Assembly (NCBI RefSeq): GCF_009938015.1
Contig: NZ_AP021884.1
Span: 1,475,501-1,539,500, forward strand
DNA length: 64,000 bases
Direction of reading: 5' to 3'
Source: Sulfuriferula plumbiphila
Lineage (GTDB): Bacteria > Pseudomonadota > Gammaproteobacteria > Burkholderiales > Sulfuriferulaceae
In this document: positions 45,652-59,746 of the stretch, one piece after another
How the letters are laid out: the number at the start of each line of letters is the position of its first letter
How positions within the stretch are numbered: the stretch's first letter is position 1
Position numbers and translations under genes: made by a program
The notes under the pieces: generated by a model
The model's input: the letters and a program-made list of their open reading frames with translations, nothing else
What the model was told of the DNA's origin: nothing
Database searches by the model: none

Positions 45652-48600
45652 ATGTTCCATACCGTACTGGTTGCCAACCGGGGCGAAATTGCCGTTCGCA
45701 CCATCCGCACCTTGAAGAAAATGGGGATACGCAGCGTCGCGATCCATTCCGATGCCGACCGCAATGCGCGCCACGTGGTCGATGCCGATGCGGCGATTGC
45801 GCTGGGCGGTAACAGCCCGGCGGAGAGCTATCTGCGTGCCGACAAGATTATTGAAGCAGCCCAATCAGCCGGGGCGCAAGCGATTATTCCCGGCTACGGT
45901 TTTTTATCCGAGAATGCCGATTTCGCCGAGGCGTGCGAGGCTGCCGGGCTGGTGTTTATCGGGCCTGCGCCAGAGCAGATGCGTCAGTTCGGCCTCAAGC
46001 ACAGCGCGCGTGAAATTGCCGGTGCGGCGGGTGTGCCGCTCACTCCGGGTACCGGACTGCTCGCCGATCTGGCCGAGGCCACCCAGGCTGCTGCGCAGCT
46101 GGGCTACCCGGTGATGCTCAAGAGCACGGCGGGTGGCGGCGGGATCGGCCTGAGCCGGTGTAACAATGAAGCCGAACTGGTGGCCGCGTTTGAATCGGTG
46201 CAGCGCCTCGGGAAAAGTTTCTTCAGCGATGGCAGCGTGTTTCTGGAACGCTTTGTGAAGAATGCGCGCCACGTCGAAGTGCAGATTTTCGGGGATGGCC
46301 AGGGCAAGGTGGCCGCACTGGGCGAGCGCGACTGTTCGCTGCAGCGCCGCAACCAGAAGGTGGTGGAAGAAACGCCGGCCCCTGGATTGCCGCCGGCCAC
46401 GCGCACTCGATTACTCGAGGCCGCAGTCAGGCTGGGCAAGGCGGTCAACTATCGTTCTGCCGGAACAATAGAATTCATCTACGACGCAGCGCGCGACGCG
46501 TTCTATTTTCTGGAGGTCAACACGCGTTTGCAGGTTGAACACCCGATTACCGAAGCGGTCACCGGCATTGATCTGATAGCGTGGATGGTCAGCACCGCAG
46601 CAGGCGAACCGCCTGCGCTGGATGCGCCTATCGTGCCGCAGGGCGCGGCCATCGAAGTGCGCATTTATGCGGAAGACCCGGTGAAAAATTTTCAGCCTTC
46701 CCCGGGCGTGCTGACCGAGGTGGTGTTCCCGGATGACGTACGTGTGGATACCTGGGTGGCCGCCGGGGTGGAAGTCTCTGCGCATTATGATCCGATGCTG
46801 GCCAAGCTGATTGCTTATGGCGCCAACCGCGAGGCGGCATTGGCGAAACTGATTGAAGCCCTCGACGCCACGCGCATTGCAGGGATAGCCACCAACCTGG
46901 ATTATTTGCGCCAGGTGGTGGCGTCAGCGGTGTTTATCAGCGGCAATGTCTCGACCGCTGCACTGGAAGGGTTCCGTTTCCAGCCGTCGGTGATCGAGGT
47001 GGTCGAGGCGGGCACCTATTCCACGGTACAGGATTACCCGGGACGAATCGGCTACTGGGATATCGGGGTGCCGCCGTCCGGCCCGATGGACGATTACGCG
47101 TTCCGTCTGGCTAACCGCATCGTCGGTAATCATCCTGGTGCCGCCGCGCTGGAATGCACGATACTGGGGGCGACGCTCAAATTCCATTGCGCGGCAACCA
47201 TCGCTCTGAGCGGCGCGCCGACGGCCGCAACCCTGGACGGCAAACCGGTCGCATTCTGGCAGGCGATCAGGGTGAAAAGCGGCCAGAAATTGGTGATCGG
47301 CAAGGTATTGAGCGGCTGCCGCACCTATTTTGCTGTGCGTGGCGGGCTGGATGTGCCGGTGTATCTGGGCAGCCGCTCGACTTTTGCGCTGGGGCAGTTT
47401 GGCGGGCATGGCGGACGGCCGCTCAGGGCCGGGGACATGCTGGCGGTCAGCCGCCCGGAATTGCCTGCCTGTACCACGCCCGCGCCACGCTATGCCGAGT
47501 CGGCGGCACCCGCAGCACTGATTCCGGAATACCGCCAGGATTGGGAAATTGGCGTGCTGTATGGTCCGCACGGCGCGCCGGATTTTTTTACCGAAGACGC
47601 GATCGCGATGTTTTTCTCCACTGCCTGGAAAGTACATTACAACTCCAATCGCCTGGGCATACGCCTGAATGGACCCAAACCCACCTGGGCGCGCAGCGAC
47701 GGCGGCGAGGCCGGTTTGCATCCGTCCAATATTCACGATTGCGAGTATGCGATCGGCAGCATTAATTTTACCGGCGACATGCCGGTGATTCTGACGCGTG
47801 ACGGCCCCAGCCTGGGCGGCTTTGTGTGCCCGGCCACGATTGCCCGCGCCGAGTTGTGGAAAGTCGGCCAGGTGAAGCCGGGTGACCGCATCCGCTTCCG
47901 CCCACTCAGTTTCGATGCTGCGCTGGCACTGGAGCGTGCCCAGGACAAGGCGATCGAAACGCTCAGCCCCATGCCGGCGCTGCCGCGTGCCCAGCTGCCC
48001 AGTTTGCAGCCGGCCGCTACCGTATCGGCCTGCGTGCTGCGCGAATTGCCGGCGCAGGACGAACGGCCTGCCGTGGCCTATCGTCAGGCCGGCGATAAAT
48101 ACATCCTGCTGGAGTATGGCGCCAATGTGCTCGATTTGCACCTGCGGCTGCGCATTCATGCGCTGATGGAGGCGCTCAGGGCCAGCCCTGTCAATGGTAT
48201 CCTGGAGCTGTCCCCGGGCGTGCGCTCGCTGCAGATCCATTACGACAGCCGCATCCTGCATCAAACCGCGCTGCTCGATGCGCTGTGCGCGCTGGAGGCG
48301 CAATTGCCGCCCGCCAGGAGCATGCGCGTACCCAGCCGCATCGTGCATCTGCCGCTGGCGTTCGAGGATACGGCCACGCTGGATGCCGTGGCGCGCTATC
48401 GGCAGTCGGTCAGGGACAGCGCGCCGTGGCTGCCCAGTAATGTCGAGTTCATCCGCCGCATCAACGGCCTCGCCAGTCAGGATGAGGTGCGCGATATTGT
48501 GTTCAATGCCAGTTACATGGTGCTGGGGCTGGGTGATGTGTATCTGGGCGCGCCGTGTGCGGTCCCGGTCGATCCGCGCCATCGCCTGCTGACTTCCAAA

Positions 48601-49278
48601 TACAATCCGGCGCGTACTTACACGGCGGAGGGCACGGTCGGTATCGGCGGTGTCTATATGTGCATCTACGGCATGGATTCGCCCGGCGGTTACCAGCTCA
48701 TCGGCCGCACCCTGCCGATCTGGAACAAGTTTCTGAAAAACCCGCAATTCAGACAAGGTGCGCCGTGGCTGTTGCGTTTCTTCGACCAGGTGCGCTATTA
48801 CCCGGTGAGCGAAACGGAGCTGAATCAGCTACGTGAGAATTTCCGCGAAGGGCTGACCAGCATCCGCATTGAAGACGCCGTGTTTGACCTCGCACAATAC
48901 GATGCATTCCTGCACGACAATGCCGACAGCATCGCCAGTTTCCGGGCACGGCAGCAGGCAGCTTTCAACGCAGAAGTTGCGCACTGGCAAACATATGCAA
49001 CGGAAATCGCAGCGCATGATGACGAGCCGGACGTGGCACCACCCGGCGCGGATAGCGCCGGTCATATCGTCGCCTCGGATATCAGCGGCAGTATCTGGAA
49101 ATTGCTGATCGAGGCGGGCGCCGTGGTGAAAGCAGGCGACCCATTGCTGATCGTCGAGGCGATGAAAATGGAGTTTTCCATCTGCGCGCCCATTGACGGA
49201 ACGGTGTGTGCACTGCATTGCCGCGCTGGCAAGCAGGTTGCAGCTGGGGATGCGCTGGTGGTGATTGAACCCGTGTAG
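45652..49278 (+). CDS. uca: Urea carboxylase (urea/guanidine carboxylase family), first paralogue
   Basis: Biotin- and ATP-dependent carboxylase making allophanate from urea. 1208 residues. Order: biotin carboxylase (1-~440; [13 protein letters not shown]-grasp loop, [18 protein letters not shown]), KipA/AHS2-like part of the carboxyltransferase (from ~443; VEAGTYSTVQDYPGRIGYWD, PPSGPMDDY), KipI/AHS1-like part (from ~808; VAYRQAGDKYILLEYG), the UCA-specific tail ([37 protein letters not shown]) and a biotinyl domain with EAMKMEF (biotin-Lys1172). Members of this family are split between urea and guanidine; the setting behind urtABCDE-atzF favours urea. Bracketed by two inverted MITE-like repeats. 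Confidence 0.9.
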   Translation: MFHTVLVANRGEIAVRTIRTLKKMGIRSVAIHSDADRNARHVVDADAAIALGGNSPAESYLRADKIIEAAQSAGAQAIIPGYGFLSENADFAEACEAAGLVFIGPAPEQMRQFGLKHSAREIAGAAGVPLTPGTGLLADLAEATQAAAQLGYPVMLKSTAGGGGIGLSRCNNEAELVAAFESVQRLGKSFFSDGSVFLERFVKNARHVEVQIFGDGQGKVAALGERDCSLQRRNQKVVEETPAPGLPPATRTRLLEAAVRLGKAVNYRSAGTIEFIYDAARDAFYFLEVNTRLQVEHPITEAVTGIDLIAWMVSTAAGEPPALDAPIVPQGAAIEVRIYAEDPVKNFQPSPGVLTEVVFPDDVRVDTWVAAGVEVSAHYDPMLAKLIAYGANREAALAKLIEALDATRIAGIATNLDYLRQVVASAVFISGNVSTAALEGFRFQPSVIEVVEAGTYSTVQDYPGRIGYWDIGVPPSGPMDDYAFRLANRIVGNHPGAAALECTILGATLKFHCAATIALSGAPTAATLDGKPVAFWQAIRVKSGQKLVIGKVLSGCRTYFAVRGGLDVPVYLGSRSTFALGQFGGHGGRPLRAGDMLAVSRPELPACTTPAPRYAESAAPAALIPEYRQDWEIGVLYGPHGAPDFFTEDAIAMFFSTAWKVHYNSNRLGIRLNGPKPTWARSDGGEAGLHPSNIHDCEYAIGSINFTGDMPVILTRDGPSLGGFVCPATIARAELWKVGQVKPGDRIRFRPLSFDAALALERAQDKAIETLSPMPALPRAQLPSLQPAATVSACVLRELPAQDERPAVAYRQAGDKYILLEYGANVLDLHLRLRIHALMEALRASPVNGILELSPGVRSLQIHYDSRILHQTALLDALCALEAQLPPARSMRVPSRIVHLPLAFEDTATLDAVARYRQSVRDSAPWLPSNVEFIRRINGLASQDEVRDIVFNASYMVLGLGDVYLGAPCAVPVDPRHRLLTSKYNPARTYTAEGTVGIGGVYMCIYGMDSPGGYQLIGRTLPIWNKFLKNPQFRQGAPWLLRFFDQVRYYPVSETELNQLRENFREGLTSIRIEDAVFDLAQYDAFLHDNADSIASFRARQQAAFNAEVAHWQTYATEIAAHDDEPDVAPPGADSAGHIVASDISGSIWKLLIEAGAVVKAGDPLLIVEAMKMEFSICAPIDGTVCALHCRAGKQVAAGDALVVIEPV

Positions 49279-49433: not shown

Positions 49434-50198
49434 CTAGGTTGAACGGGTGCGATTGCCCCCGCGGCGCGCGCGTTCGAGTTGGGTCAGGGTGAGGTTTTTG
49501 ACGAAATTCTCGCTGTAGCTGATATGCGCTTTCATTAGTCTTTGCGCTTCGGCCAGGTCGCGCTGGAGCAGCTGCTGGCAAATCTGGTGATGCTCTTCGT
49601 AGGTGCGGTCGATGCGCGTAGCGTCGGTAAAGTCGAGGCGGCGGACCGCCCGGATACGGCCGTTAATGTCTTCCAGATAATGCCTCAAGGCGATGTTTCC
49701 ACCGCCTTCCGCCAGGGTCATGTGAAATGACTCGTCACGCGCTTCCATTTCTTCCGAGTCGTTGCTGCGTTCTTCCTGCCGGGCAGGATCCCAGGACTGC
49801 GCCAGTTTTTCCAGATCGGTGGTCGGCATGAAGGCGGCGGCCAGTTGCAGGGACAACATTTCCAGCGTGATGCGAACCTGGTAGTAATGCGCGAGTTCCG
49901 CGATATCGAGGTTGCGGATAAAGCATCCCTGCTTCGGCAGAATACGCAGATACCCCTCGGTTTCAAGGCGCTGCAACGCACTCCGGATCGGAGTGCGGCT
50001 GACACCATATTGAACCGCCAGTTCAGACTCGGTAATCCGCGTTCCCGGATAGAGTTCGAAATTGAGGATGCTTTCACGCAACTGGTTGTATACGTCTTTT
50101 GCACTGAGTTTGGCTTCCGACACAGGTACCTCTGGAATGGACTTTACTGCCTGGTTTTGATTGTAGGCTGATGCTGGAAGTCTCCACAACTGCTTCAT
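49434..50198 (-). CDS. GntR-family regulator with FCD ligand domain
   Basis: 254 residues. Winged-helix domain (~30-95: LSAKDVYNQLRESILNFELY, PGTRITESELAVQYGVSRTP, IRSALQRLETEGYLRILPKQ), then an FCD effector domain (RITLEMLSLQLAAAF; DESFHMTLAEGGGNIALRHY; HHQICQQLLQRDLAEA) whose Asp/His residues (D..H..H..H pattern) may hold a metal and a small carboxylate or amide. It converges with uca and diverges from the porin gene, so it probably controls this cluster; the palindrome at 37746-37757 is a candidate site. The first ~25 residues are unusual for the family and an internal start is possible. Confidence 0.9.
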   Translation of the reverse strand: MKQLWRLPASAYNQNQAVKSIPEVPVSEAKLSAKDVYNQLRESILNFELYPGTRITESELAVQYGVSRTPIRSALQRLETEGYLRILPKQGCFIRNLDIAELAHYYQVRITLEMLSLQLAAAFMPTTDLEKLAQSWDPARQEERSNDSEEMEARDESFHMTLAEGGGNIALRHYLEDINGRIRAVRRLDFTDATRIDRTYEEHHQICQQLLQRDLAEAQRLMKAHISYSENFVKNLTLTQLERARRGGNRTRST

Positions 50199-51669: not shown

Positions 51670-51685
51670 TGGCATAAGATGTGCT
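51670..51685 (+). promoter_or_regulatory. Candidate sigma-54 promoter of the guanidine operon
   Basis: TGGCATAAGATGTGCT has the essential GG-N10-GC and the flanking TGGCA / TGCT, with three mismatches to consensus. Transcription would start near 51696, exactly at the 5' arm of the riboswitch leader, which supports the call. Confidence 0.5.
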
Positions 51686-51697
51686 AATGGTTTTGCA

Positions 51698-51867
51698 GAG
51701 AGGTGCAGTCGTCACTGTATCCTTTGATTTTCAGGGCAACTAGGGTTCCGGTTCCACAATTGTGGGATGTCTGGTCCGAGAGTTGTCCGGCCTCAGCATG
51801 ATAGAGGCTCCACGGAGGGATAAAAGCCCGGGAGGTCGCGACCAGTCGTCGCTTCACCTCTCGCAAG
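51698..51867 (+). ncRNA. Guanidine-I (ykkC) riboswitch leader with terminator
   Basis: The conserved blocks of the guanidine-I aptamer are present in order: CTAGGGTTCCG (51740-51750), GGTCCGAGAG (51773-51782) and ACGG-AGGGATAAAAGCCCGGGAGG (51812-51835). P1-type stem GGGCAAC (51734-51740) pairs with GTTGTCC (51782-51788). Past the aptamer, GGGAGGT (51830-51836) can pair with ACCTCTC (51856-51862) around an inner GCGAC/GTCGC stem, followed by GCAAGTTTTT: a terminator that uses the aptamer's last conserved bases. The leader's 5' GAGAGGTG (51698-51705) can pair perfectly with CACCTCTC (51855-51862) as antiterminator. Established: this class switches guanidine export and degradation genes on when guanidine binds. 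Confidence 0.95.
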
Positions 51868-51897
51868 TTTTTAACTCTTCCTTAAGGAGTATCTGTT

Positions 51898-52890
51898 ATG
51901 TGCTTTAAACGCTTTCTTGGACGCACCCTTGCCGCGCTGTTTCTCTCCCTTGGATTGCTGCTGACGGGTTTGCCTGCCGCACATGCAGAAATCAAGGTCG
52001 GCTTAAGCGACTGGCCTGGCTGGGTGGCCTGGTACGTCGCCGAGCAGCAGGGTTACTTCAAGAAATATGGCGCCGACGTCAAGCTGGTCTGGTTTGCTAA
52101 CTATACCGATTCCATTTCCGCCCTTTCCGCAGGGCAACTTGATGCCAACTCCCAGACCTGGAGCGATACCTTGGCGCCCCTTGCCAAGGGGATTCCACTC
52201 AAGGTCGTACTGGTCAACGACAACTCCGCCGGCAACGATGCGCTCATGGTCGGCCCCAACATCAAGCGCTTCGCCGATCTCAAGGGTAAGACCATTGCGC
52301 TGGAGGAATTCAGTGTTTCGCACTTTCTGCTGGTGACTGCACTGCACAAGAACGGCATGTCGCTCAAGGACGTGAAGGTGGTGAATCTTGCCGCTGGTGA
52401 TGCCGCCGCAGCTTTCCTCAGTGGCCGCGTCGATGCTGCAGTGGTGTGGAATCCGTGGGTGAACAAAATTCAAATTAGCGGCAAGGGGCATGCATTATTC
52501 ACCTCCAAGGAAATCCCCGGTCTGATTCCCGATCTGCTGGTGGCGCAGGAAAAATCCCTGGTGGCGCACCGCAAGGATTTCATCGGCATGATCAAAGCCT
52601 GGTACGACACCGAGAAATTCATCCGCGAACAGCCTGGCGTAGCGGCCAAAATCATGGCCAAGGTGGTGAGCATGCCGCCTGAAGAGTATAGGGTGTTCCT
52701 GTCCGGGACTAAATTTTTTGATCAGAATGGCAATCTGCAAGCCTTCGGCCCCGCTTCCGATCCTACTTCTTTACTGGGAGTAGCACCCACCATAGCAAAA
52801 TTCCTTCTGGAAAATAAACTGATGGAAGGGAAGGTGGATTACGCCAAAGGGCTGGATGGCTCGTTGGTGAAAGAAGTCGCCAGGCGCTAG
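51898..52890 (+). CDS. NitT/TauT-type ABC transporter, substrate-binding protein (probable guanidine)
   Basis: 330-residue periplasmic binding protein with signal peptide (ALFLSLGLLLTGLPAAHA). The mature start EIKVGLSDWPGWVAWYVAEQ and the motifs ALSAGQLDANSQTWSDTL, ALEEFSVSHFLLVTALHKNG, GRVDAAVVWNPWVNKI are those of NMT1/TauA-like receptors. AAGGAG lies 8 nt before the ATG, 30 bp after the riboswitch. Guanidine as ligand is inferred from the riboswitch and the genes behind it; such transporters are known with guanidine carboxylase clusters. Followed by permease and ATPase genes. Confidence 0.9.
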   Translation: MCFKRFLGRTLAALFLSLGLLLTGLPAAHAEIKVGLSDWPGWVAWYVAEQQGYFKKYGADVKLVWFANYTDSISALSAGQLDANSQTWSDTLAPLAKGIPLKVVLVNDNSAGNDALMVGPNIKRFADLKGKTIALEEFSVSHFLLVTALHKNGMSLKDVKVVNLAAGDAAAAFLSGRVDAAVVWNPWVNKIQISGKGHALFTSKEIPGLIPDLLVAQEKSLVAHRKDFIGMIKAWYDTEKFIREQPGVAAKIMAKVVSMPPEEYRVFLSGTKFFDQNGNLQAFGPASDPTSLLGVAPTIAKFLLENKLMEGKVDYAKGLDGSLVKEVARR

Positions 52891-52899
52891 GGAATCAAC

Positions 52900-53763
52900 A
52901 TGCCAACCACCGAACGCAGCCTTTCAAAATCTACAATGCCCAGCGCAGCCGTGATGCCTGTAGCTGTACAGCGCAAACGCAGGTTCTGGACCATCCGGGG
53001 CCGCCTCAGCCGTAAGGAGTACCTGGTCCTGGCTGCTCTGGGTATGGTGCTGCCCTTTGTCGGCTGGTGGTGGCTGGCCAGCAGCGGGTTGATGGACAAA
53101 GTGTTCATGCCCAGCCCGCTGGACGTGATCACGCGCATACACCGCTGGTTCATGGAAGACAACCTGATGGGCGATGCCTCGATCAGTATCTACCGGGTGA
53201 CGGCCGGTTTTATACTCTCGGCGATGTTTGCCTTGCCGCTGGGACTGATGATCGGCACCTACCGCCCGGTTCAGGCCATGCTGGAACCACTGCTCGATTT
53301 CATTCGCTATATGCCGGCGGTCGCATTCATTCCGCTGGTCATGATCTGGGTCGGCATCGATGAAGGCTCCAAGATTGCGATCATTTTTATTGGCACGTTT
53401 TTTCAGATGGTGTTGATGGTGGCGGAAGATGTTCGTCGGGTGCCTCTGGCGCAAATCGAGGCAGCGCAAACCATGGGCGCCAGGCGCGGAGAAATCGTTT
53501 CGCTGGTGATCCTGCAATCGGCCAAGCCTGCGCTTCTGGACACCCTGCGCATCACCATGGGATGGGCTTGGACTTACCTGGTGGTAGCTGAGCTGGTAGC
53601 TGCCAACTCGGGTCTGGGTTACGCCATTCTCAAGGCGCAGCGTTTCCTGCAAACCGACAAGATATTCGCTGGAATTATTTTAATTGGCCTGATCGGCTTG
53701 GTTACCGACCAGCTGTTCCGGCTTGTTCATCGCAAATCCTTCCCCTGGCTTTATCGCAAGTGA
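52900..53763 (+). CDS. NitT/TauT-type ABC transporter, permease
   Basis: 287 residues. A ~45-residue basic N-terminal tail (VQRKRRFWTIRGRLSRKEYL) leads into six membrane helices of the BPD_transp_1 fold. The EAA coupling loop is ADVRRVPLAQIEAAQTMGAR-like (AAQTMGARRGEIVSLVILQS), and the family-typical end PALLDTLRITMGWAWTYLVV and AELVAANSGLGYAILKAQRF are present, as in SsuC/TauC. It starts 9 bp after the binding-protein gene and its last bases touch the ATPase gene's start region. Forms the channel for probable guanidine uptake. Confidence 0.93.
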   Translation: MPTTERSLSKSTMPSAAVMPVAVQRKRRFWTIRGRLSRKEYLVLAALGMVLPFVGWWWLASSGLMDKVFMPSPLDVITRIHRWFMEDNLMGDASISIYRVTAGFILSAMFALPLGLMIGTYRPVQAMLEPLLDFIRYMPAVAFIPLVMIWVGIDEGSKIAIIFIGTFFQMVLMVAEDVRRVPLAQIEAAQTMGARRGEIVSLVILQSAKPALLDTLRITMGWAWTYLVVAELVAANSGLGYAILKAQRFLQTDKIFAGIILIGLIGLVTDQLFRLVHRKSFPWLYRK

Positions 53764-53768
53764 ATATT

Positions 53769-54608
53769 ATGCAAACCAAAATTCAGATTGAGGCAGCAGG
53801 CAAGATCTACACGGATGGCAAGCACAATGTCGAAGCGCTGCGAGCTGTCAACCTCGACATCGCTGCCAACGAATTTGTCACCTTGGTCGGGGCCTCCGGC
53901 TGCGGCAAATCCACCCTGCTGCGCTGCATTGGCGGACTGGAGGAACTGAGTTTGGGTGAAATCCGGGTGGATGGCCGTCCGGTCAGCGGACCCGGTGTAA
54001 ATCGCGCCATGGTATTCCAGCACTACAGCCTGTATCCGTGGCTTACGGTAATGGAAAACATCAAGTTCAGCCGCCGCTTGAAGGTCCATCGTGAGGGGAT
54101 CACTTCATCCGACGTGGAAACGGCCTCGGGGCGCGCAGATGCCCTGCTGTCGCTGATGGGATTGAATCATGCGGCACTTGCCTATCCTGACCAGCTCTCC
54201 GGCGGCATGCAGCAACGCGTAGCAATCGCCCGTGCGCTGTTGCCCAAACCCGACATCCTGTTGCTGGACGAGCCGTTCGGCGCACTTGACGCGCAAACCC
54301 GCGAGGTGATGCACGACCTGATCCTGCATATTTTCAACCTGGAAAAAACCACCAATGTGTTTGTCACCCACGATGTCGAAGAGGCGATCTACCTGGGACA
54401 GCGTGTAGTACTGATGGCGCCGCGCCCAGGGCGTATCGATACCATCTACGAAGTGCCGTTGCCTGCGGAACGGGACCAGGACATGAAGTTGTCGCCGGAA
54501 TTCATCCGTCTCAAGAAGGAAATCCTGCAGCGCATTCGCGAGACTTCCGGCATGCGTACAGACAAAGACATGCTGGATCGGCTGACCCGGCAGACCGAAC
54601 CGGGGTAA
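53769..54608 (+). CDS. NitT/TauT-type ABC transporter, ATPase
   Basis: 279 residues. Walker A GASGCGKSTLLRC, Q-loop VFQHYSLYPWLTVMEN, signature LSGGMQQRVAIARALL, Walker B ILLLDEPFGALDAQT, and switch His VTHDVEEAIYLGQRV: all motifs intact. Closest to SsuB/TauB/NrtD ATPases. ATG at 53769 is preferred to the GTG at 53760, which overlaps the permease stop. Third gene of the guanidine operon; a 64 bp gap leads to cgdA. Confidence 0.94.
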   Translation: MQTKIQIEAAGKIYTDGKHNVEALRAVNLDIAANEFVTLVGASGCGKSTLLRCIGGLEELSLGEIRVDGRPVSGPGVNRAMVFQHYSLYPWLTVMENIKFSRRLKVHREGITSSDVETASGRADALLSLMGLNHAALAYPDQLSGGMQQRVAIARALLPKPDILLLDEPFGALDAQTREVMHDLILHIFNLEKTTNVFVTHDVEEAIYLGQRVVLMAPRPGRIDTIYEVPLPAERDQDMKLSPEFIRLKKEILQRIRETSGMRTDKDMLDRLTRQTEPG

Positions 54609-54672
54609 TTGAACAGGAAAACTACGGCAACACAGCAACATAATTTACGCATACCACAAGCAAGGATCTTCG

Positions 54673-55407
54673 ATGAACAATCAACTCAATACGCTGACTC
54701 CGCACCCCGTATGGGAGGAGGAAATCCCTGGTGGTGCGCACTGGTCCTTCGTCATCAGGCGTGGCATGACCCTGCGCCTGATCGATATGCAAGGCGGCGC
54801 CAACGTCTCGGCGTTGTTCTATAACGCGCAGGAGAAGCTGGAACGCTACAACATGGCGGACACTCTCAAGGCCCAGCACACCGCCCATCTGACCAAAGGC
54901 TTTGTGTGCTATTCCGACATGGGACGGGTATTGTGTTCGCTGGTGGAAGACACCTGCGGCTGGCACGATACCATCTGCGGCATGAGCGATGCCGCGCAAG
55001 TCAAACAGAAATACGGCGAAGCACGCTATCAGGAACACCGCAACGCCATGCACCGCAGCGCCCGCGATGGCTTTCTCATCGAGCTGGGAAAGTGGGGGCT
55101 GGGCAAACGTGACATCGTTGCCAACGTCAATTTTTTCAGCAAGGTGAGTGCGGACGCGCAAGGTAATCTGCTGTTCCAGCCGGGCAATTCCAGCGCCGGA
55201 GATTACGTTGATCTGCGCTTCGAGATGAACACGCTGGTGGTCTTGTCCGCCTGTCAGCATCCGCTCGATCCCAATCCGCAATACGTGCCGAAACCGGTGC
55301 AGCTTACTGCGTGGCACTCCGGCACACCGGGCAATGACGACTACTGCCGCAATTTTCGCCCGGAAAACCAGCGCGGCTTCTACAACACCGAACTTCTGTT
55401 TTGCTGA
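54673..55407 (+). CDS. cgdA: Carboxyguanidine deiminase subunit CgdA (DUF1989, urea-carboxylase-associated protein)
   Basis: 244 residues of the DUF1989 family, once called urea carboxylase-associated protein. With CgdB it removes the imino group of carboxyguanidine, giving allophanate and ammonia. Seen: [78 protein letters not shown] and [15 protein letters not shown]; conserved Cys/His in the DTCGWHDT and ACQHPLDP blocks may bind a metal. AAGGA precedes the ATG. cgdB starts 11 bp after its stop. Riboswitch-controlled setting supports the guanidine role. Confidence 0.93.
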
Positions 55408-55418
55408 AGGGAATGAAC

Positions 55419-56066
55419 ATGGCGATTGTTGAAAGCAAACTTAACCTCAGTGACGCAGTTTATGACTTAACTTTGCCCGCCGGCGAACCCTGGCTGCATG
55501 AAGTGCAACAGGGTCAGGTGTTGCGCATCCTTGACCTGGAAGGTAACCAGGCGGTGGACACGCTGTTCTACAATGCCCGCGAGCCCAGTGAGCGATACAG
55601 CGCGGTGGATACCATACGCGCCCAGGGCAATTTGTACCTCGGTGCCGGTTCGCGCCTGCTCTCGAGCGAGGGCAATGTGCTGGTAAGTATCGTAGCGGAC
55701 ACTTGTGGTCGCCACGACACACTGGGTGGCGCCTGCGCGGCGGAGAGCAACAGCGTGCGCTACGCTATTGACAAGAAATTCATGCACAGCTGCCGCGACA
55801 GTTTTCTGCACGCGCTTGGCCACTGCGACTGTGGCATGGACAAGCGCGATCTCACCAGTAACGTCAATTTTTTTATGAATGTGCCGGTGACGCCAGAGGG
55901 TGAGCTGACTTTTGCCGACGGCATTTCTGCACCCGGAAAATATGTGGAAATGCGTGCTGAAATGGATGTGACAGTGCTGATCTCCAACTGCCCTCAACTC
56001 AACAACCCGTGCAATGCCTACAATCCGACGCCAGTGCGGCTACTGATCTGGAATCCGGCGGCCTGA
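55419..56066 (+). CDS. cgdB: Carboxyguanidine deiminase subunit CgdB (DUF1989)
   Basis: 215 residues, paralogue and partner of CgdA. Shared blocks: [58 protein letters not shown], and [20 protein letters not shown]. The DTCGxHDT motif is kept, and the C-terminus has the NCPQxNNPCNxYNPTP end typical of the B subunit. ATG at 55419 sits 7 nt after AAGGG; earlier in-frame starts overlap cgdA. Between it and the carboxylase, GGACGACCTGC occurs twice (56076-56086, 56105-56115). Confidence 0.93.
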
Positions 56067-56134
56067 ACCCTCGCAGGACGACCTGCAAGGCTGAAAAAGT
56101 GGTGGGACGACCTGCCCTGCAATGGAAATACAGC

Positions 56135-59100
56135 ATGTTTGATAAAGTCCTGATCGCCAACCGCGGTGCCATCGCCTGCCGCATCATCCGCACCCTGAAG
56201 CGGCTTGGCATCCGCTCTGTGGCGGTGTATTCCGAGGCCGATGCCCACTCGCTGCACGTGTCCCAGGCGGACGAAGCGGTGTGTATCGGCGCGGCACCCG
56301 CAGCGGAAAGCTATCTGCGCGCCGAGAAAATTCTCGAAGTTGCCCAGCAGACCGGGGCACAGGCCATTCATCCCGGATATGGTTTTCTCTCCGAGAATGC
56401 CGATTTCGCCGCAGCCTGCGCCCATGCCGGTATTGTATTTATCGGACCCAGCCCGGCGCAAATGCGCGCCTTTGGCCTCAAGCATACGGCGCGCGAGCTG
56501 GCGCAGCAAAATCAGGTTCCTCTGCTGCCAGGCAGCGGTCTTCTGGCGGACGTGGGGCATGCCCAGGCAGAGGCCGCGCGCATAGGATTTCCGCTCATGC
56601 TGAAGAGCACTGCCGGTGGCGGCGGCATCGGCATGCGTTTGATCTGGAGTAGCGACGGACTGGTCGAGGCGTTTGCTTCGGTAGAACGTCTGGCCCGGGC
56701 GAATTTCAAGGATGCCGGCATCTATCTGGAAAAATATGTAGAGCAGGCGCGCCATATCGAGGTGCAGATTTTCGGCGACGGCAAAGGCCAGGTAGTGGCG
56801 CTGGGCGAACGGGATTGTTCGGTACAGCGCCGCAACCAGAAAGTGATTGAGGAAACCCCCGCGCCGGGGCTGACCGGTGTGCAGCGTGCGTGTTTGCGGG
56901 AAACGGCGGTAAAGCTGGGCAAAGCGGTCGATTACCAATCTGCCGGCACGGTGGAATTCGTCTATGACGTCCACAGTGGTGAGTTCTATTTCCTGGAAGT
57001 GAATACCCGGTTGCAGGTGGAGCACGGCGTGACCGAGCAGGTCACCGGCGTTGACCTGGTGGAATGGATGGTGTGCCAGGCGGCAGGCGATCTGGCGCCA
57101 CTGGAGAGCTTCCGCATCGAGCCGCGTGGCGCCTCGATTCAGGTGCGCCTGTATGCGGAAGATCCGGCCAAGAATTTCCAGCCTTGCAGCGGCGTGCTTA
57201 CCGACGCGGTGTTTCCCGAACAGGCGCGGGTGGACACCTGGGTTGAACGCGGCAGTGCCATCCCGTCGTTTTACGACCCGATGGTAGCCAAGATTATTAC
57301 TACTGCTGATAACCGCGACGCGGCACTTGCCAAAATGCAGGCAGCACTGGACGCGACGCATATCGCCGGTATCGAAACCAATCTGGCGTATTTGTGCCAG
57401 GTGCTGCGCGACCGGATATTTGTCGAGGGTCATCAAACCACGCGTTATCTCAACGCTTTTCACTACCAGCCTACCACTGTGGACGTGCTGGAGCCCGGCG
57501 TGCAGAGCAGTATCCAGGATTATCCAGGGCGTGTCGGTTACTGGAATGTGGGCGTGCCGCCTTCGGGTCCGATGGATGCCCTGGCATTCCGCCTTGGCAA
57601 CCGCCTGCTGGGCAACCCGGACCAGGCCGCCGGCCTGGAGCTGACTGTCGCCGGGCCGAGCTTGCGTTTCAATTGCGATGTAGTGATCGCACTAACCGGT
57701 GCCACCATGACGGCGGAGCTGGACGGCGAGCCCATTGCTTTCTGGCGCACACAAGCCGTCAAAGCCGGCAGCGTGTTGCGCCTGGGCAGCGTGCCCGAAA
57801 ATGGCTGCCGCGCCTATCTGACGGTGGCGGGCGGATTCGACGTGCCGGATTACCTCGGCAGCAAAGCCACTTTCACCCTCGGCCAGTTCGGCGGCCACGC
57901 CGGGCGGACATTGAGAGTAGGCGATGTACTCCATCTCGGCAGCGCCCTGACGGGCGTGAACGGCGATGCGGTGCTGGAGCCGGCGCTGATTCCGCATTAT
58001 GAAAGTCACTGGGACATCGGTGTGTTGTATGGCCCTCATGGGGCACCGGATTTCTTCACCGATGCCGACATCGAAATGTTCTTCGCCACCCATTGGGAGG
58101 TGCACTACAACTCCAGCCGCACCGGCGTGCGCCTGATCGGACCCAAGCCACAGTGGGCGCGCACGGATGGAGGCGAGGCAGGGCTGCATCCGTCCAATAT
58201 CCACGACAACGCTTACGCCATCGGCGCGGTGGATTTTACCGGTGACATGCCGGTGATCCTCGGCCCGGACGGTCCTAGCCTGGGCGGTTTTGTGTGTCCG
58301 GCTACCATCGTTCAGGCTGAACTATGGAAGATGGGCCAGTTGCGTCCCGGCAATACGGTTCGCTTCCGCCGCATCACACTGGATCAGGCGATAAAACTTG
58401 AGGCAGAACAGGATGCTGTGATCAACACACTGCAAATTCCTGAAAAATCGGCCGCCATCGCCATGGGCGATGTCATGGCCGTCAGTCCGGTACTGCAACG
58501 CAAGGAAGAACAACCGGGCCAGGTTGCGGTTACCTACCGGCCAGCGGGCGACAAATACCTGTTGGTCGAATATGGCCCGCTGGTGCTGGATCTGAATCTT
58601 CGTTTCCGTGTGCATGCATTGATGCAATGGTTCCAGCAGCAGCACCTGCCTGGCATCATCGACCTGACGCCAGGCATCCGTTCGCTGCAAGTGCATTACG
58701 ATAACCGCGTGCTGCCGCTACAGGCCTTGATGGAAGCGCTGACGGCCGCCGAGACCGAACTGCCTGCGATTGAAGACATGGTGGTGCCGACCCGCATCGT
58801 GCATCTGCCCCTGTCCTGGGACGATCCATCGACCAGATTGGCGATCGAGAAATACATGCAGTCGGTGCGCATGGACGCGCCGTGGTGCCCGAGCAACATC
58901 GAATTCATTCGTCGTATCAATGGACTGGACAGCATCGCCCAGGTGAAGGACATCGTGTTCAACGCCAGCTATCTGGTGATGGGTCTGGGCGACGTGTACC
59001 TGGGCGCGCCGGTGGCGACCCCCCTGGATCCGCGCCACCGGCTGGTCACCACCAAGTACAACCCGGCGCGCACCTGGACCCCGGAAAATGCCGTCGGTAT

Positions 59101-59746
59101 CGGCGGCGCCTACATGTGTGTATACGGCATGGAAGGTCCCGGCGGCTATCAGTTCGTGGGCCGCACCATACAGATGTGGAACCGCTACAAGCAGACCGCA
59201 GATTTCAGGGACGGCAAGCCCTGGCTGCTGCGCTTCTTCGACCAGATACGCTTCTATCCGGTGTCGGAAACCGAGCTGCTCAAGCTGCGCGAGGACTTCA
59301 TTACCGGCAGTTTTCATCTGAAAGTGGAAGAACAGACCTTCAGCCTGCGCGAGTACAACGCATTTTTACAAACCAATGGTGCCGACATCGCCGCTTTCAA
59401 AGCCGCGCAACAGGCCGCATTCGACGCCGAGCGCGAGCGCTGGCAGGCAAGCGGCCAGGCCGATTACGCAACCGATGCCGCCGTGGCGGAAGCCGCGACA
59501 GACAGCGAGCTGGATCTGCCACCCAACAGTCGCGCCGTGGCCAGCCATGTGGCGGGGAATATCTGGCAGATTGCAGTGGCCGAAGGCGACACGGTGCAGG
59601 CAGGTGATACCTTGGTGATCGTTGAATCCATGAAGATGGAGATCAGTGTGACCGCCCCGGTGGCAGGCAAGGTGTTACGCCTGTTCTGCCGGGAAGGCAG
59701 CCAGGTGGCGGCGGGGCAGGATTTGTTGGTCATTCAGGCGGAATAA
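56135..59746 (+). CDS. Guanidine carboxylase (urea carboxylase family), second paralogue
   Basis: Biotin- and ATP-dependent carboxylation of guanidine to carboxyguanidine. 1203 residues, with the same domain order as the enzyme at 45652: biotin carboxylase ([31 protein letters not shown]), KipA-like ([20 protein letters not shown]), KipI-like ([20 protein letters not shown]), carboxyltransferase tail ([39 protein letters not shown]) and biotinyl ESMKMEI (Lys1167). Several differences in the carboxyltransferase (LDS for LAS, MEGPGG for MDSPGG) may reflect substrate choice. Start at 56135 (GGAA upstream), not 56009, which overlaps cgdB. Co-transcribed with cgdAB behind the riboswitch, hence the guanidine call. 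Confidence 0.9.

Follow-up and report, generated by a model that had tools for sequence, protein, structure and literature searches.

Riboswitch expression platforms are commonly regarded as poorly conserved and are interpreted one case at a time. In riboswitches such as the purine class, the switching strand comes from the P1 closing helix, which competes with a terminator. For the guanidine-I class (ykkC subtype 1, RF00442), reviews give ON switching by prevention of a terminator as the norm (PMC12186494; PMC12508155). The PRPP and ppGpp riboswitches (ykkC subtype 2) possess a helix between the two ends of the aptamer, P0, which the PRPP structure paper ties to the expression platform and states to be absent from guanidine-I (PMC6031431).

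Analysis of the window, the whole 64-kb stretch of DNA studied here, revealed a guanidine-I leader followed by an operon (Table 1). The RF00442 match is full-length and exceeds the curated threshold, and guanidine metabolism genes (carboxylase, UAAP1/UAAP2, and ABC transporter) lie 3' of the aptamer, as is characteristic of the class. NCBIfam matches in the operon comprised SsuA_fam (204.8 bits), TIGR03425 (376.6 bits), TIGR03424 (343.1 bits), and TIGR02712 (1939 bits); we take the two UAAP (urea-amidolyase-associated) proteins to be what current naming calls carboxyguanidine deaminase subunits. The locus resembles described guanidine-I systems in aptamer sequence and structure, controlled genes, and probable ON logic, and its predicted terminator likewise uses the 3' conserved bases of the aptamer. 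Unlike them, it has a covarying helix between the transcript 5' end and the 3' strand of the terminator, which is absent from the Rfam model and from the excerpts of published descriptions available to us. The class and its ON logic are thus known, and the 5'-end antiterminator helix appears to be new. An earlier description is possible: a search of the open-access literature yielded nothing linking a guanidine riboswitch with sigma-54, RpoN, or NtrC, and the original publications from 2004 and 2017 could hold one.

Several neighbouring features were also recorded. A further gene for a urea/guanidine carboxylase (TIGR02712, 1957 bits) is located at 45652-49278, approximately 2.4 kb upstream of the riboswitch, and between the two the minus strand carries a gene for a GntR-type regulator (49434-50198). 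The same genome contains a second guanidine-I riboswitch (L002; G000:C1:1542957-1543061) on the opposite strand, approximately 16 kb away and just past the window, in which the complementarity between the 5' end and the 3' side is weaker than in its own relatives.

Table 1. Features of the guanidine-I leader and its operon, in window coordinates
Feature	Position	Strand	Basis or detail
Sigma-54-type promoter TGGCATAAGATGTGCT (-24 GG, -12 GC)	51670..51685	+	score 14 of 15; start predicted ~51696
Local 5' hairpin sequestering X in free RNA	51696..51726	+	MFE fold; X locally paired with probability 0.87; -14.0 kcal/mol
X: 5' strand of the proposed long-range antiterminator helix, at the start of the predicted transcript (GAGAGGTG)	51698..51705	+	8/8 complement of Z; swap tests
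Guanidine-I aptamer (RF00442)	51729..51836	+	87.1 bits vs gathering threshold 63; all 107 model positions
Y: aptamer 3' edge and 5' strand of the terminator stem (CGGGAGGT)	51829..51836	+	Rfam match, folding
Inner small hairpin GCGAC/GTCGC	51838..51852	+	paired in free and constrained folds; fits both states
Z: strand common to both helices (CACCTCTCG), X:Z being the antiterminator and Y:Z the terminator	51855..51863	+	sequence, folding
U-run TTTTT after CAAG spacer	51868..51872	+	sequence
Shine-Dalgarno AAGGAG of first gene (start 51898)	51884..51889	+	sequence
Controlled operon: ABC substrate-binding protein, permease, ATPase, two UAAP proteins, urea/guanidine carboxylase	51898..59746	+	

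The initial annotation had paired GGGAGGT at the end of the aptamer with ACCTCTC as a terminator stem. These strands, at 51830-51836 and 51856-51862, indeed form seven pairs, one of them G-U, and C51829-G51863 lengthens the stem to eight pairs around the inner GCGAC/GTCGC hairpin. The hairpin at 51828-51871 reached -19.5 kcal/mol (z = -4.24), which none of 200 shuffles equalled, and its stem (51829-51836/51856-51863) overlaps the 3' edge of the aptamer, as in other guanidine-I leaders. The terminator assignment held for the stem and less well for the tail: the U-run begins 4 nt past the stem, making the structure imperfect as an intrinsic terminator, and a consensus terminator scan did not list the 51828-51871 hairpin with its TTTTT.

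At the opposite end of the leader, GAGAGGTG (51698-51705) pairs in eight of eight positions with CACCTCTC (51855-51862), as had been noted for the extreme 5' end. Both strands of the 64-kb window together contain just two copies of GAGAGGTG, which correspond to the paired strands of the proposed helix. In the DNA, the complementarity can be extended by TTGC/GCAA beyond a bulged A; this extension is probably absent from the RNA, since it lies at or upstream of the predicted transcription start. Because 1.2 copies of GAGAGGTG are expected by chance in the window, the 8-mer pair alone is weak evidence and the comparison with relatives decides; this comparison strongly favours the helix. If the match were coincidental, the leader would be an ordinary guanidine-I terminator without an antiterminator, and the expected copy number, together with the resemblance of X to Y (GAGAGG versus GGGAGG), which could make partial complementarity to Z incidental, agrees with such an account. 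The swap tests, run on two independent sets and on a GAGAGG-free subset, contradict it as a general explanation, however, and we consider it highly improbable.

For these tests, 223 distinct leaders were gathered from the genus, the order, the class, and a named genome collection. Each of 83 non-redundant leaders carrying a sigma-54-type promoter contributed its first 18 transcribed nt, which were paired with the 60-nt stretch behind its own aptamer and with the corresponding stretch of every other leader. A first run on full-length duplexes, in which long multi-loop duplexes diluted the signal, was replaced by this 18-nt segment, which was fixed in advance for the second sample. Native pairs reached -16.9 kcal/mol versus -13.4 kcal/mol for swapped pairs (permutation Z-score -11.7, p = 6e-13). 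Control segment pairs from the same 83 leaders gave Z-scores of -1.1 (upstream of the promoter), 0.5 (promoter), and -2.2 (+16 to +34), and X against the region 70-130 nt downstream gave -1.5. The result was replicated in 21 new leaders unlike the first set (Z-score -7.5; 0 of 5000 permutations as good), with helices including GAGGAATCAAATGGC/GCCATTTGATTCCTC.

Watson-Crick stems of at least seven pairs were found in 45% of native combinations versus 9% of swaps among the 83 leaders, and the longest X:Z stem begins a median of 3 nt past the predicted +1. When all GAGAGG leaders were removed, the energy-based swap test retained a Z-score of -11.8. Within the genus, three leader types carry three different closing helices, namely GAGAGGTG/CACCTCTC, ACGGGA/TCCCGT, and GCAGGTAGAG/CTCAACCTGC. 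Since the helix sequences differ widely and each leader pairs best with its own flank, X and Z covary across relatives. The covariation of this outer stem, on which the initial annotation had staked its proposal beforehand, is strong in both the 83 and the 21 non-redundant leaders. X against its own local hairpin partner passed the swap test moderately (Z-score -5.0), and the X' x Z and inner-hairpin swap tests gave no signal. Aligning 15 near leaders with MAFFT gave no information on covariation, GAGAGG being invariant there and the Z strand out of register.

Leaders without a sigma-54-type promoter gave Z-scores of -0.1, -2.2, and -3.0 in three test windows, the last of which may leave room for some helices among them. 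The first reading had not recognised that the arrangement belongs to leaders with sigma-54-type promoters and not to the entire class; the others show little of it.

To compare the two pairings in the window leader, 51696-51871 was folded with ViennaRNA, either free or with the aptamer pairs imposed by hand and the aptamer's GGGAG held; guanidine-binding energy and tertiary contacts lie outside this model. In the free RNA, Y:Z had a probability of about 0.99 and X:Z of about 0, with X sequestered in a local 5' hairpin that the first reading of the sequence had overlooked. With the aptamer pairs imposed and Y held, X:Z rose to 0.92. The X:Z fold (-49.2 kcal/mol) was better by 2.6 kcal/mol than the best fold with Z single-stranded and the 5' hairpin formed (-46.6 kcal/mol), and the forced aptamer fold lay at -49.2 kcal/mol versus -69.6 kcal/mol for the free RNA. 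Terminator and antiterminator exclude each other, as previously claimed: Z is common to both, and the partition calculation with and without the aptamer constraint predicts the flip from Y:Z to X:Z. Across the 83 leaders, withholding Y alone lifted mean X:Z pairing from 0.13 to just 0.32 per nt, so the flip is not predicted everywhere.

We examined strand sharing and the likely output in the same relatives. The X-complement takes in half or more of the Y-complement in 72% of the 83 leaders, and in some relatives, L046 and L228 among them, X:Z reaches past the Y-complement. At least five T within the 10 nt after the Y-complement were found in 34% of leaders versus 10% of the background, a clear U-tract being missing in about two thirds of relatives. 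The median distance from the end of Z to the Shine-Dalgarno sequence is 14 nt, and the two overlap in 12%. With T-rich tails enriched and Z mostly clear of the Shine-Dalgarno sequence, termination is the likeliest output, although in a non-textbook form in most leaders; given the offset or missing U-runs, it may be weak or depend on Rho, or another output may partly take its place. The scarcity of T-rich tails points towards a different output, in which Y:Z would act through Rho, pausing, or translation initiation while X:Z would still be the ON-state partner. Their frequency is nevertheless three times the background, and the spacing of Z makes direct ribosome blocking unlikely in most leaders; we regard a non-intrinsic output as conceivable, albeit rather unlikely.

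Taken together, the leader is likely a guanidine-I riboswitch that turns transcription on through a long-range 5'-end antiterminator. Transcription would start at the sigma-54-type promoter, at approximately 51696. Without guanidine, Y would pair with Z to form the terminator, with X held in its local hairpin. With guanidine, the aptamer would keep Y and leave Z free to pair with X; the X:Z helix would close the whole leader and block the terminator, and the guanidine transport and carboxylase operon would be read. A point against this switch is that X must first escape its own local hairpin, and competition of the aptamer for Y might be enough for switching without X:Z. If the scheme is correct, it explains how proteobacterial guanidine-I switches prevent termination, and the position of the transcription start matters for riboswitch function.

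X:Z shares with P0 of the PRPP and ppGpp riboswitches the joining of two ends in connection with an expression platform. It encloses the whole aptamer, and a helix at the aptamer ends that is involved in the expression platform is known from those riboswitches (PMC6031431), so that X:Z could be a real but structural closing helix stabilising the ligand-bound aptamer. P0, however, is part of those aptamers and extends directly from their ends, whereas here about 24 and 20 nt, including hairpins, separate X and Z from the edges of an aptamer that is guanidine-I by its Rfam match, so that the helix is not stacked on it. Moreover, Z overlaps the Y-complement in most leaders, which would be needless for a purely structural helix, and we consider this role improbable. 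The antiterminator arrangement resembles the purine-class P1 in that an aptamer-closing helix and a terminator compete for a common strand; it differs in that the conserved P1 of guanidine-I leaves the aptamer not wholly closed, the closing helix being an added, distant one.

The sigma-54-type promoter, which would place the transcript start at the helix, had also been overlooked. By sequence score, TGGCATAAGATGTGCT carries the TGGC...GC elements with GG and GC at -24 and -12, its predicted start lies two bases before X, and RpoN (rpoN) is encoded in the same genome. Promoters in the 14-15 score bins were found in 139 of 223 leaders (all phyla, first set) versus 4 of 223 shuffled upstream regions, and a score of at least 13.5 was reached in 50 of 61 leaders of the second set. 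Judged by these scores, most proteobacterial guanidine-I leaders carry sigma-54-type promoters; among the loci of the named genome collection listed by title, all leaders with such promoters were from beta- or gammaproteobacteria. About 100 non-redundant leaders share a single recurring design, tied to a sigma-54-type promoter, that would make the RNA's initial bases the antiterminator. This design suggests that organisms using guanidine as a nitrogen source control the operon jointly by nitrogen status and guanidine.

NtrC-like sites with at most one mismatch within 200 bp upstream occurred in 32% of the first set versus 1.5% of dinucleotide shuffles and, at the same mismatch limit, in 17% of the second set versus 0.6% of mononucleotide shuffles, most of them positioned 70-140 bp before the -24 element. 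Upstream of the window promoter, the best match to TGCAC-N7-GTGCA had three mismatches. The site frequencies suggest nitrogen control of guanidine-I leaders in these bacteria, the window operon apart. The chances are about even that beta- and gammaproteobacterial guanidine-I leaders form a two-input device, in which the start at a sigma-54 (nitrogen-limitation) promoter would fix the antiterminator strand, promoter and platform would have evolved as a unit, and the operon would be read only when nitrogen need and guanidine coincide.

In three Acinetobacter leaders (L070, L105, and L135), the sigma-54-type promoter lies approximately 30 nt before the aptamer, which leaves no room for a 5'-end strand, and the expression platform there must therefore differ. 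The third leader type of the window's genus, represented by L011 and L012, has no U-tract, and the protein encoded 3' of the leader in L012 begins with MELKVFKTYWGWKSDYSAIVDDLLAFGFNGLEAPAP.
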